From NCBI GenBank assembly GCA_029881255.1, contig JAOUMY010000003.1, positions 368,732 through 432,731 of the forward strand: a DNA stretch of 64,000 bases, in the 5' to 3' direction. Below are positions 46,772 to 51,449 of this stretch, piece after piece. Under the pieces are notes generated by a model. It saw only the letters and a list, made by a program, of their open reading frames with translations, did no database searches and was not told the origin of the DNA. The DNA comes from Gammaproteobacteria bacterium (GTDB taxonomy: Bacteria; Pseudomonadota; Gammaproteobacteria; S012-40). The translations under genes and the position numbers were made by a program. Within the stretch, counting starts at the first letter, position 1. Every line of letters begins with the position of its first letter.

Positions 46772-47278
46772 TCATTGAAGCAGATTCAAGCGTTCCTGCA
46801 TCGGTGTTTCATCGTTCCACGTCTCAGAGTCTATCAGCCATTCTCCATCATCCTGTCGCAGAAAGATGACTAGCCAGACGCCACTCTCGGTATAGGCCTC
46901 CTCTTTGCTATCCCTCTCCATCATGGTTTCACGATAATTGGATCTGAAATACGCAATATCGCCTGAGATGCGTATCCTAGGCTCGCTATACTGCAATTCA
47001 TAACGGTATCTCTCATGATGGGCACGTGCCCTTGTATAGATATCGGCCGCGCTGATGACCGCCGACTCGTGCGGTGCAATCTGTATTGCTTCGGCACGAT
47101 AGAGCTTTGCCAGTTGATCGACATTGCTTTGATTGACCATGTCGCGGTAGTGCGCAATCACCTGGTTGATCTTTGCCTCATCCGCTTTTGACGATGATGG
47201 ACGATACATGCCTGTGTGCTGACAGGCACTCAACAGCGACACCAATACAATAAACATCAAAAAAGTCAATTTTCCCAT
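46772..47278 (-). CDS. Small lipoprotein with a SnoaL/NTF2-like domain
   Basis: 168 residues. The signal peptide ends in a lipobox (VSLLSAC), so Lgt should acylate Cys19. The rest has an NTF2/SnoaL-like layout: a helix with VIAHYRDMVNQSNVDQLAKLYRAEAIQIAP, a pattern seen in DUF4440/SnoaL proteins, then strands ending WLVIFLRQDDGEWLIDSETWN. No catalytic residues can be assigned. Monocistronic, divergent from the (MGG)n peptide across about 430 nt. Confidence 0.8.
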   Translation of the reverse strand: MGKLTFLMFIVLVSLLSACQHTGMYRPSSSKADEAKINQVIAHYRDMVNQSNVDQLAKLYRAEAIQIAPHESAVISAADIYTRARAHHERYRYELQYSEPRIRISGDIAYFRSNYRETMMERDSKEEAYTESGVWLVIFLRQDDGEWLIDSETWNDETPMQERLNLLQ

Positions 47279-47711
47279 TTTTTACTCCCTTATAGTTTTC
47301 GAGCTTACATAACTAAATTGCTCCGCCTTTCCCCGTCGACAAAACGCTGATCGTTTAAGCATGTCAACGCTACGTGAAACTGGTATGAGATTGCTAACAC
47401 GTTTTTCAACGCACTTTGAGTCGCGAGCTTCGTTTGAGCAGTTCATCGCTTATCTCATTTTTTAACCACGTATTGCAAAGGGACGGAGATTTTTCTCCAT
47501 AAAATTAGGGTGCGCACATTTGTGATACACAAAGACATATTAGCAATACATTTCCAAAACATTACCGTTCAGATAACTAAGCAAAATAGTATATTAATAT
47601 TCTCTAATATTTATCAGCTATGGTTAAGTTCGCGGTGTTTAAATAAAACCATAGAGAGAGTTTTTCAAACAGCAACACAAAACATCAACGTGATGTGAGG
47701 AGGATAAAGAT
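47279..47711. other. Long intergenic region before the (MGG)n peptide
   Basis: 433 nt without a convincing gene, AT-rich between 47560 and 47640. A short GGAGA-TTTT-TCTCC hairpin lies at 47485-47498. Any open frame here lacks a ribosome-binding site. It probably carries divergent promoters for the lipoprotein and the microprotein and perhaps a long leader, but no hexamer pair stands out. Confidence 0.5.
47698..47703 (+). promoter_or_regulatory. Perfect AGGAGG ribosome-binding site for the (MGG)n peptide
   Basis: AGGAGG with an 8-nt spacer to ATG 47712. An in-frame stop (TGA 47691-47693) just upstream shows the repeat frame does not continue from a larger upstream gene. Confidence 0.8.
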
Positions 47712-47792
47712 ATGGGTGGCATGGGCGGAATGGGTGGTATGGGCGGAATGGGTGGTATGGGCGGTATGGGCGGTATGGGCGGCGGTATGTAA
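47712..47792 (+). CDS. 26-residue (Met-Gly-Gly)n microprotein
   Basis: Starts at ATG 47712 and ends at TAA 47790-47792. The product is eight consecutive Met-Gly-Gly units followed by Gly-Met, nothing else. The 9-nt units vary at third positions (GGT, GGC, GGA), so the repeat is not perfectly identical at DNA level, which is compatible with selection on the peptide. It has a strong ribosome-binding site and is followed after 43 nt by a 14-bp hairpin. The composition matches the flexible (GGM)n C-terminal tail of GroEL/Cpn60. It may be a translated microprotein, a detached groEL tail duplication, or an untranslated minisatellite. No family is recognised. Confidence 0.6.
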   Translation: MGGMGGMGGMGGMGGMGGMGGMGGGM

Positions 47793-47835
47793 TCACAGCG
47801 TTAACCACTCCACTGAACTCATCAAGACCTTAAAC

Positions 47836-47868
47836 CAACAACCCCCTGAGACTATCAGGGGGTTGTTG
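47836..47868 (+). terminator. Strong 14-bp hairpin between converging genes
   Basis: Perfect 14-bp stem (47836-47849 with 47855-47868) and 5-nt loop, located between the (MGG)n peptide and the 3' end of the large hybrid kinase on the other strand. Neither side has a long U-tract, so efficiency is uncertain; it may act on both strands. Confidence 0.65.
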
Positions 47869-47915
47869 TATCAATATCACAAACTGTACAAACAATTACC
47901 CACATTCAAATCATC

Positions 47916-50900
47916 TCAAATATCCGTACCGGTTTTTTTGGCTATCTTGTGTAGTGACTCTAGCGCGGCATCGAAGTCATAAGATGCGATATTCTGTTCT
48001 AACTCGACAATTTCTGGCTCTATTACGTCTCTTTGGAATTGCGCCCTTAGTTCTACAATCTTTTCACTTGCGTCGGTATCACCGGATTCCAGCATTCGTG
48101 CAAACTCCTTCAAATCGACATTCTTTTTCCCTTGATCGATAGAAATGACATTGTCATTCGCTTTCTCATCGCTATCCAGATCTGCCTGGTATAACGCTTC
48201 CAAAACTCTGCTCAGTTCTTCTTCCAGATATTTCAAACGAACGAGAATTTCCTCGGTATCCACACGTTCAGCAAAGGCCATTTGCAATTTCTCTGCGCGA
48301 GATTGCGCCTCTAAAGCGCCAATATTCCCTGACACGCCTTTTAATGTATGCGCGAGACGATGGGCAGTCTCAATATCATCCACGTTGAACGCCGCCATGA
48401 ACTCATTAACAAAGCTGGAATTTTTTCTATATTTCAGCAAAAGTTTTTTGTACAAATCAAGATTATTGTTACAAATACGTAGCCCATATGCCGTATCAAT
48501 TCCCTGAATCGTTGGAAGCAAGCTGCCGTCAACAGACTGCAGACGCCTTTGTACCGTACTTGCGTCAATTTCCGTATGACAAATCCACCGCGCCAGAACC
48601 TGATACATTTTGTCGATGTCTAGTGGTTTTGAAATATAGTCATTCATACCCGCGGCGAGGCAACGCTCTCTGTCGCCAACCAAGGCATTTGCGGTCATCG
48701 CAATAATAGGCAACTTTGAAAAACGTTGCTGTTTGCGAATCTCTGCTGTAGCCGTAAAGCCGTCCATCTCTGGCATATGTACATCCATCAACACCAGGTC
48801 GAATTCCAAATTGTCAAGAAACGTCAAGGCCTCTTTGCCATGATTGGCAACCGCTATTGATAATCCCACATCCTCTAACAACTCAACGGCAAGTTCCTGG
48901 TTGATCTCGTTATCCTCAACTAGCAAAATACGATGTCCACGCAGACTGGCGAAAATATTTTCGTATGAGACCACATCTTGTTTTTCCTGTTTTACGGAAA
49001 CGACATGCTCTCCTCCCAGTGCGTCAGTCAGCGCATTGAGTAGAGATGACGGGTTCACAGGTTTTAGCAATGTTCCACGCAGGGGGAGATTATCGATGTG
49101 TTTCTTAAGTTCAGAAATCGCGTAGGCGGTTACCATAATAACAACCGGAACATGAAATAGATTCTCATCATGAAAAATGGCCTTTGTGGTTTCAATTCCA
49201 TCCATTTCCGGCATTTTCCAGTCCATCAATACCAGGCTGTAAAATTCCCCTCTTGCATCGGCTGACGCCAGTTCTTTAATTGCTTCTCTACCGGACTCGC
49301 AGGTGTTCACTTTAAATCCGAAGCTTCCAACAGCTTCTTGAAGTGTTAATCGTGCAGTTTCATTGTCATCCACAATGAGCACCCGCATGGTATGTACATC
49401 AGCAGGCAGAACAGAACGTGCCGAGTTGACGGCCTCGCCTATGCCGAGCACCGATGTAAAGTAGAAACGGCTTCCGCGTCCGGGTTCGCTGTCGAAATTG
49501 ATCTCACCGCGCATGAGCTCAACCAGACGACGTGAAATAACCAAACCCAGTCCTGTGCCGCCAAATTTGCGTGAAACAGAGCTATCTGCCTGCGTGAACG
49601 CCTGAAACAGCTTCTTGCGACTGTCTTCATCTATGCCAACACCAGTATCTTGCACTTCGAACAGTAACGTTACCTGCTTCTCTTCAGTTCGCTTCACCGA
49701 AACTCGTATCTGCAATTCGCCTTTGTGAGTGAACTTCACCGCATTGCCACCGAGATTAACAAGAACTTGAAGTAGGCGATTGGGATCACCCAATAGTTCC
49801 AACGGTACATCCGCTGCCACATGATGAATGTATTCGAGCCCCTTTTCTTGTGCCTTCAATCCCACCAGGTTGGTTAAGCGTTCCAGCAAATCGCCCAGCA
49901 TAAACGGAATACTTTCTATTTCCATATTGCCCGACTCGATTTTGGAAAAATCAAGGACATCGTTAATTATGGAAAGCAAAGAATCAGCGGAAAAATGTAC
50001 TTTTTCGATATAATTGCGCTGCTTTGCATCAAGATCGGTTCGCAAAGCAAGCGCAGACATACCGATAATAGCATTCATCGGCGTACGAATTTCGTGACTC
50101 ATCATTGCCAAGAATTCTGATTTAGCACGGCTAGCCTCTTCAGCCTTTTCGCGCTCTCTGATCAGATTCGCTTCGAATTCCCTCCTTTCCGTCAAATCGT
50201 GGACCATACCGGTAAACATTTTCCTGCCGCGATACACAATCTCGCTAATACCAAGACTGATTGGAAATTGATCACCTTGCTTATTCCTCCCTATCAAATC
50301 TCTGCTTGTCCCGATGATTCTTGCTTCCCCTGTCGTCAGGTAGCGTTCCATATAAGAATTGTGCCTAGTCCTATGAGATTCAGGCATTAAAATACTGACA
50401 TTTTTCTTGGTGACTTCTTTGGCTGTGTAGCCAAACAAAACTTCTGCGGCATGATTGAAGCTCTCAATGGTACCAGCTTCATCGATTATAATAATTGCAT
50501 CGGTAGCATTTTGTAGAATATTCCGTAAAAAGGTTTCAGATCGACGCAAATCTTCATTCGCCGCCTCGATCGCGTCAGTAGCTGATTTCAATTTCTCCTC
50601 TTCTTGTTTGCGCAGAGTAATATCTCGAATTACCGCTACTAGCGTAGGAGCAACATTTGGTTGGGAAAATATACTGAATCTCGCCTCTATGGGAAATTGT
50701 TTACCTGAGCTTGTGCAAGCGACATCTTCCAGCGTCTCACCTAGGGACTTCCCTTCCAATAGCTGAACCACCTTGTCTATGGAGTGATCCGTGTGATTGA
50801 CGAACACATCGGAAATCCTGATATGTTGAATTTCATTTTTTTCGTATCCAAATCGTGTTAGTGCACTTTGATTACAATCGACAATTTCATAGGAAACCAG

Positions 50901-51449
50901 GTCTATAAGAAATATACAGTCGCTAGTCGTATCCAGTGCAAGACGAAAACGATCATTTACGTTTCGCATTTTCTCTTGTTCGACAACAAGACTTTCGGTA
51001 TACGCCTCATTAGCCAAACAAAGACGTATGGACTTAGATAAATTTGACAATATGGGTGAAAATATTCGCGCAAACATATTCGTGTCCCGCTTATCACCCA
51101 CGCCAAGGAGGATAATATGTCCGTACTCTGGAATTTTCAGCGTTTGTTGAATAGAATATCTGTCCTGACGGATAGGCAAACACGAAAGCACAAATTCGTT
51201 ATCTTTCCATAGCGTCTTAAAAGGCTGCCCTTGCGCTCCCTTGGCAATCGGATCACCAATACTCACTTCCAACCAATTGGCACTGTCACCAAACTCTTCG
51301 TCGTTACGTACGACTAGTCCGGTCGAGAATCCTGTATGAAACATCAACCGCTGCAGCACCTTCGTCAACATAGGGCGATATTTCATCTCCGACCCCATGA
51401 CCTGACTCAAGTCATACAGAATGGAAAGTAGTTGAACTTGATCATTCAT
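47916..51449 (-). CDS. Large cytoplasmic hybrid histidine kinase: PAS-PAS-HisKA-HATPase-REC-REC-HPt
   Basis: 1177 residues without membrane helices. An N-terminal GAF-like region (about 1-150) precedes PAS1 (about 165-285) and PAS2 (about 305-425). H452 lies in FLAMMSHEIRTPMNAIIGM; the ATPase has NLGGNAVKFTHKGE, DTGVGI and GTGLGLVI. REC1 has D743 in LVLMDWKMPEMDG and REC2 has D889 in LVLMDVHMPEMDG, followed by a C-terminal HPt with H1034 in RLAHTLKGVSGNIGALEAQ. All residues for a complete His-Asp-His relay are intact. The gene starts 26 nt after a lone receiver gene on the same strand, a plausible target. No DNA-binding output is attached. Confidence 0.95.
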   Translation of the reverse strand: MNDQVQLLSILYDLSQVMGSEMKYRPMLTKVLQRLMFHTGFSTGLVVRNDEEFGDSANWLEVSIGDPIAKGAQGQPFKTLWKDNEFVLSCLPIRQDRYSIQQTLKIPEYGHIILLGVGDKRDTNMFARIFSPILSNLSKSIRLCLANEAYTESLVVEQEKMRNVNDRFRLALDTTSDCIFLIDLVSYEIVDCNQSALTRFGYEKNEIQHIRISDVFVNHTDHSIDKVVQLLEGKSLGETLEDVACTSSGKQFPIEARFSIFSQPNVAPTLVAVIRDITLRKQEEEKLKSATDAIEAANEDLRRSETFLRNILQNATDAIIIIDEAGTIESFNHAAEVLFGYTAKEVTKKNVSILMPESHRTRHNSYMERYLTTGEARIIGTSRDLIGRNKQGDQFPISLGISEIVYRGRKMFTGMVHDLTERREFEANLIREREKAEEASRAKSEFLAMMSHEIRTPMNAIIGMSALALRTDLDAKQRNYIEKVHFSADSLLSIINDVLDFSKIESGNMEIESIPFMLGDLLERLTNLVGLKAQEKGLEYIHHVAADVPLELLGDPNRLLQVLVNLGGNAVKFTHKGELQIRVSVKRTEEKQVTLLFEVQDTGVGIDEDSRKKLFQAFTQADSSVSRKFGGTGLGLVISRRLVELMRGEINFDSEPGRGSRFYFTSVLGIGEAVNSARSVLPADVHTMRVLIVDDNETARLTLQEAVGSFGFKVNTCESGREAIKELASADARGEFYSLVLMDWKMPEMDGIETTKAIFHDENLFHVPVVIMVTAYAISELKKHIDNLPLRGTLLKPVNPSSLLNALTDALGGEHVVSVKQEKQDVVSYENIFASLRGHRILLVEDNEINQELAVELLEDVGLSIAVANHGKEALTFLDNLEFDLVLMDVHMPEMDGFTATAEIRKQQRFSKLPIIAMTANALVGDRERCLAAGMNDYISKPLDIDKMYQVLARWICHTEIDASTVQRRLQSVDGSLLPTIQGIDTAYGLRICNNNLDLYKKLLLKYRKNSSFVNEFMAAFNVDDIETAHRLAHTLKGVSGNIGALEAQSRAEKLQMAFAERVDTEEILVRLKYLEEELSRVLEALYQADLDSDEKANDNVISIDQGKKNVDLKEFARMLESGDTDASEKIVELRAQFQRDVIEPEIVELEQNIASYDFDAALESLHKIAKKTGTDI

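Follow-up and report, generated by a model that had tools for sequence, protein, structure and literature searches.

A 26-codon open reading frame (ORF) encoding only glycine and methionine, found in the 64,000-nucleotide stretch of gammaproteobacterial DNA that we analyzed (the window), is very probably a translated gene belonging to a real microprotein family, as judged by the synonymous pattern of its repeats, the recurrence of its anatomy in other genomes, and the linkage of its relatives to one subfamily of ABC exporters. Both this peptide-exporter linkage and the status of the ORFs as genes are well supported; translation in vivo is what we infer from them. In most of the family-bearing genomes found, one family member is paired with an MsbA-like exporter, often together with a fused MFS/spermidine-synthase-like (MFS/SpdSyn) protein.

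A Gly/Met-only ORF with a coding signature

The product of the window ORF, MGGMGGMGGMGGMGGMGGMGGMGGGM, consists of eight MGG units followed by GM. The frame, the AGGAGG motif with its 8-nt spacing, the in-frame stop upstream, and the varied glycine codons, all recorded in a preliminary description of this DNA, are borne out by the sequence (Table 1). Glycine is encoded eight times by GGT, seven times by GGC, twice by GGA, and never by GGG. When the eight 9-nt units are compared, positions 1 to 5, 7, and 8 are constant, variation is confined to the two glycine third positions, and every difference between units is synonymous. Because only these third positions vary, the pattern reads as a coding signature, which would not be expected from a drifting DNA repeat, and a chance origin is further opposed by relatives elsewhere that share the same anatomy. 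Among the options that the preliminary description had considered, a translated, free-standing peptide thus gains support from the strong ribosome-binding site, the synonymous-only variation, and the recurrent family.

Table 1. Features of the microprotein locus in the window
Feature	Position	Strand	Basis
Gly/Met-only microprotein ORF, 26 aa (ATG at 47712, last base of TAA at 47792)	47712..47792	+	ORF list and sequence; compiled family members
Shine-Dalgarno motif AGGAGG, 8-nt spacer to ATG	47698..47703	+	Sequence; counterpart before nearly every family member (partly a selection criterion)
In-frame stop TGA closing the frame upstream	47691..47693	+	Sequence
14-bp hairpin between convergent microprotein and kinase genes	47836..47868		Fold; terminator scan negative
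Neighbor: small lipoprotein, SnoaL/DUF4440 domain (context only)	46772..47278	-	Pfam
Neighbor: hybrid sensor kinase PAS-HisKA-HATPase-REC-REC-Hpt (context only)	47916..51449	-	Pfam

The 14-bp hairpin described downstream of the ORF folds well, but no U-tract follows it and the terminator scan gives it no score; it is possibly a weak bidirectional terminator. The view that the neighboring genes give no functional hint holds for the window copy, an unlinked paralog with no exporter nearby, but not for a second copy on contig C5 or for most relatives, which have an informative neighbor. Searches of plasmids and of viral contigs returned no matches.

A family of Gly-rich microproteins

The second free-standing Gly/Met ORF of this genome, on C5, encodes MGGMGGMGGGGGGGMGGMGGGMGGGM and is preceded by AAGGAGGTCACT. 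A terminator-like hairpin follows it, and an MsbA-like ABC exporter gene lies 200 bases downstream on the same strand. Relatives were sought by BLAST in related genomes and by pattern scans of both a class sample and the 85,000-genome GTDB collection, all genomes compared with the window copy lying outside its genus. About 25 free-standing relatives were found, spread over at least five other gammaproteobacterial families. In the GTDB collection the strict pattern matched six contigs, three with chaperonin tails (L053, L054, and L058) and three with free-standing ORFs (L055, L056, and L057), the latter all gammaproteobacterial MAGs.

The repeat type differs by clade and includes GGM, poly-Gly, Ala-Pro tails (G402, G404, and G401), GDI (G392 and G394), and DGD. 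Constant across clades are Gly-richness, small size, and the ribosome-binding site; the 22 members that we tabulated were chosen partly by this site, so its presence among them is no independent evidence. Glycine codons in these 22 members are nearly all GGC, GGT, and GGA, with GGG accounting for 1 in ~497; G010 and two further ORFs in G048 are members outside the table. Homology of the Gly-rich repeats across clades is not demonstrable by sequence. None of the peptides matches a family in Pfam, NCBIfam, or Rfam, and a limited search of an incomplete literature library gave no precedent for a named Gly/Met microprotein; the family is apparently undescribed so far.

Some members are damaged or incomplete: a relative in G403 no longer has an ATG where one is expected, and the peptide ORF runs into N gaps in G045 and G327. 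The G387 member (L111:3622-3843, minus strand) carries a one-base shift within the repeat, with the MSGGGGG pattern kept in both halves in different frames, reflecting either a real frameshift or an assembly error. Two Asp-Gly-rich ORFs of 49 to 50 aa in family f2 (L144:3449-3601 and L145:8362-8511, both minus strand; f-handles are anonymous family labels) share the start MLT(D/K)Y(V/I)I and sit directly 3' of the exporter, and possibly serve the same role with another repeat. Between two f64 genera (L105 and L110), the DNA can be aligned from the peptide ORF onward into the 3' flank, at 67% over 254 nt, and a structured 3' UTR is possible there. G048, which has three free-standing Gly/Met ORFs, also encodes two proteins in which a signal-peptide-like N terminus precedes long GGM repeats (L006 in G048:C139 and L158 in G048:C24).

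Linkage to one subfamily of ABC exporters

The exporter contains ABC_membrane and ABC_tran domains plus weaker P-loop matches, and no peptidase domain. It shares its domain architecture with MsbA and TIGR02204 MsbA_rel but scores far under the curated cut-offs (353.9 vs 780.4; 341.2 vs 602) and, on this sequence comparison, is a separate subfamily. With the exporter of L057 as query, matches were found in 11 of 369 genomes of the class; further matches came from families f64 and f101 and from G003, G006, and G010 of the window's own family, of which G005 has an exporter fragment at a contig end. In a phylum-wide sample of 398 genomes the exporter occurred in this genome alone, indicating that the family is narrow.

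The linkage test began from the exporter, not the peptide, and used a fixed criterion: a ribosome-binding-site-like motif, an ATG, and a short Gly-rich ORF no more than 1.5 kb from the exporter. Such an ORF was present at 18 of 37 exporter-subfamily loci versus 0 of 13 control loci, the latter being the next-best paralogous exporters of the same or related genomes (Fisher p ~0.001, uncorrected for relatedness). G378 and G389 are apparently one genome, as are G379 and G402 (identical contigs and coordinates), and each pair was counted once in the 37 loci. The peptide gene is in this sense tied to one exporter subfamily, the window copy itself being unlinked. Several ORF-negative exporter loci end at a contig edge beside the exporter, which is what assembly breaks inside the repeat would produce; in G112, a poly-Gly ORF following the exporter runs off the end of one contig, and a second contig opens within a poly-Gly ORF that precedes an MFS/SpdSyn gene. 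At G310:C15, G048:C29, and G393, no Gly-rich ORF lies within 1.5 kb of the exporter, and these are true negatives. Copies sit 3 to 5 kb from the exporter in G207, G249, and L056, and G003, G310, and G048 also have copies unlinked to it.

Arrangement varies among clades. In the window's family, the copies of G003 and G006 lie directly upstream of the exporter, like the C5 copy, whereas most families other than f1 have the ORF and the exporter facing each other in convergent orientation. At many loci of families f64 and f101, groEL adjoins the exporter (L079, L080, L110, L111, L116, L117, and L118), with the peptide beyond the exporter on the opposite strand.

A fused MFS/spermidine-synthase-like neighbor

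The second recurrent neighbor is a 1036-residue fused protein that passes the cut-off of the MFS/spermidine synthase subfamily NF037959 (136.2 vs 40). It occurs in 9 of the 369 genomes, all nine within the 11 that have the exporter (hypergeometric p = 1.7e-16, uncorrected for relatedness; eight families involved). A Gly-rich ORF lies within 1.5 kb at 7 of 12 MFS/SpdSyn loci versus 0 of 4 paralog loci. The order ABC-peptide-MFS/SpdSyn is seen in G045, G048, and G327, likewise across the contig break in G112, and several families have the order (groEL)-ABC-peptide-MFS/SpdSyn. The Asp residues of the DSTD motif are catalytic in spermidine synthase, yet in an alignment to spermidine synthase 1inl the protein has QPSH in place of DSTD and so lacks the catalytic Asp pair, which makes aminopropyl transfer doubtful. 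A literature search in an incomplete library returned no relevant paper on fused MFS and spermidine synthase domains.

Proposed role and alternatives

Taken as a whole, our preferred reading, a translated Gly-dominated peptide gene with a dedicated ABC exporter, is in our judgment evenly poised between right and wrong, and its central element, handling of the peptide by the exporter, to which the linkage points, has about an even chance. The peptide would be a cytosolic product lacking a cleavable leader, its chain would be extended and likely polyproline-II (PPII)- or polyglycine-II-like, and the ABC exporter would recognize its composition rather than its sequence and carry it across the inner membrane; the MFS/SpdSyn protein might process it, or no processing might occur. 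The window copy would be an extra member, encoded away from the exporter, that shares this machinery in trans. PPII helices have been measured in the Gly/Met stretches of GroEL tails (PMC12571646), and a tendency toward such extended chains would be common to the repeat types, as we infer for the Gly- and Ala-Pro-rich relatives.

Several observations weaken the exporter reading: the window copy lacks a neighboring exporter, the peptide has no leader and the exporter no peptidase domain, the loci G310:C15, G048:C29, and G393 have an exporter without a peptide, the homology of the repeats across clades lies beyond sequence proof, and members are disrupted by the G387 frameshift, the lost ATG of G403, and the N gaps of G045 and G327. 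More tentatively, and with less confidence than in the exporter reading itself, the family could represent a new microprotein class: exported, Gly-dominated peptides of drifting sequence, structural or signaling in function, that adopt polyproline-II or polyglycine-II form and are served by an ABC exporter of their own and by a pseudo-spermidine-synthase in the membrane. Selection would then keep their composition rather than their sequence.

Such ORFs tend to be dropped as low complexity by gene-finding programs and profile libraries, and an entire family of peptides linked to one specific exporter has apparently been overlooked. If exported, the peptides would illustrate, in extreme form, how a transporter can read composition instead of a sequence signal, and they would constitute a natural bacterial polyglycine-type material. 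The exporter and the MFS/SpdSyn protein provide handles for finding and testing further members.

A different function, in which a Met-rich peptide handles Cu(I) by sequestering copper or supplying periplasmic copper enzymes, is unlikely. In its favor, the Met spacing is regular, so that MGGM and MGGGM would form Mets-type sites, and in G170 and G249 multicopper-oxidase-like proteins with GGM loops are encoded close to the exporter and the MFS/SpdSyn gene. Against this, some members are nearly Met-free: the sequenced parts of the G327 and G112 peptides are poly-Gly, and G404b contains 4 Met among its 39 residues. Others have Ala-Pro or DGD repeats; the constant residue is Gly, not Met.

The ORF might instead be merely a cis element, part of a regulatory RNA or a leader-peptide attenuator, which we consider improbable. 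Such a role would suit G000:C5, G003, G006, and L057, where a terminator-like hairpin separates the ORF from the exporter just 3' of it, and several members have 100 to 200 nt of 3' sequence ahead of terminator-like hairpins. However, the convergent orientation in most families outside f1 makes a cis leader or attenuator unlikely and led us to reject it; in addition, several copies, among them the one in the window, are not followed by an adjacent gene on the same strand, and there is no Rfam match.

Still less probable is a detached or trans-acting GroEL tail that acts in or on the chaperonin or derives from a groEL 3' end. The composition matches the genome's own GroEL tail, and the adjacency of exporter and groEL in f64 and f101 may reflect an ancient connection of the peptide to the GroEL tail. 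But no groEL lies near either copy in this genome (window and C5) or near the f34 loci examined, the f101 peptide is antisense to groEL and past the exporter, and the repeats drift to poly-Gly, GDI, and Ala-Pro. The suggestion that the ORF is a relic of a groEL 3' end, which was to be judged against the organism's own gene, fails on that comparison: the single groEL lies on contig C1 and the window ORF on C3, the GroEL protein retains its tail intact, ending DMGGMGGMGGMGMM, and the relatives are each equipped with a separate start and ribosome-binding site, often beside an ABC exporter. The window ORF, with its own start and ribosome-binding site, is neither continuous with the groEL end nor its missing tail, and we rejected it as a GroEL tail fragment.

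Finally, the earlier option of a simple DNA repeat, whose ribosome-binding site and start would be fortuitous, favored by the low complexity and by copies that are broken or contain Ns, is extremely improbable and was rejected, given variation restricted to glycine third positions, a ribosome-binding site, start, and stop that recur at ~25 loci in several families, and the tie to one exporter subfamily.

Comparison with known systems

The microprotein resembles the (GGM)n tail of GroEL/Cpn60 in Gly/Met composition and MGG spacing but differs in that it is free-standing, has a start and a ribosome-binding site of its own, and has exporter-linked relatives with poly-Gly, Ala-Pro, GDI, and DGD repeats. 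As in microcin and lasso-peptide cassettes with McjD-like exporters, a tiny peptide gene lies by an MsbA-like exporter lacking a peptidase domain, and an asparagine-synthase gene adjoins in G139, G249, and L057. Unlike the peptides of those cassettes, the product has no leader or cleavage motif and is almost one residue type. The asparagine synthase, in contrast to that of lasso clusters, has a normal glutaminase domain where complete and occurs at these three loci only; no McjB-like protease was seen, and a lasso peptide cluster was rejected on these grounds. A leader-peptide RiPP or bacteriocin with a C39 exporter was likewise rejected, the exporter having no peptidase domain and the peptide no non-Gly leader. 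GRRM/GrrA-type RiPP precursors are Gly-rich repeat peptides with conserved neighbors, features also found here, but our peptide is much shorter and has no NCBIfam match, and no radical SAM enzyme was seen among the neighbors scanned.

Other genes at the exporter and MFS/SpdSyn loci

Multicopper-oxidase-like proteins occur in pairs, in each of which one protein carries embedded GGM repeats, at L143:5466-7687 (minus strand), L084:17489-19694 (plus strand), and L162, those of L143 and L084 close to the exporter and MFS/SpdSyn gene. A Qrc-like complex, comprising a multiheme cytochrome c, a molybdopterin subunit, an Fe-S subunit, and NrfD, is conserved beside the MFS/SpdSyn gene at L061:1-5172 (minus strand), L063:5401-10000 (plus strand), and L081:1-4150 (minus strand).
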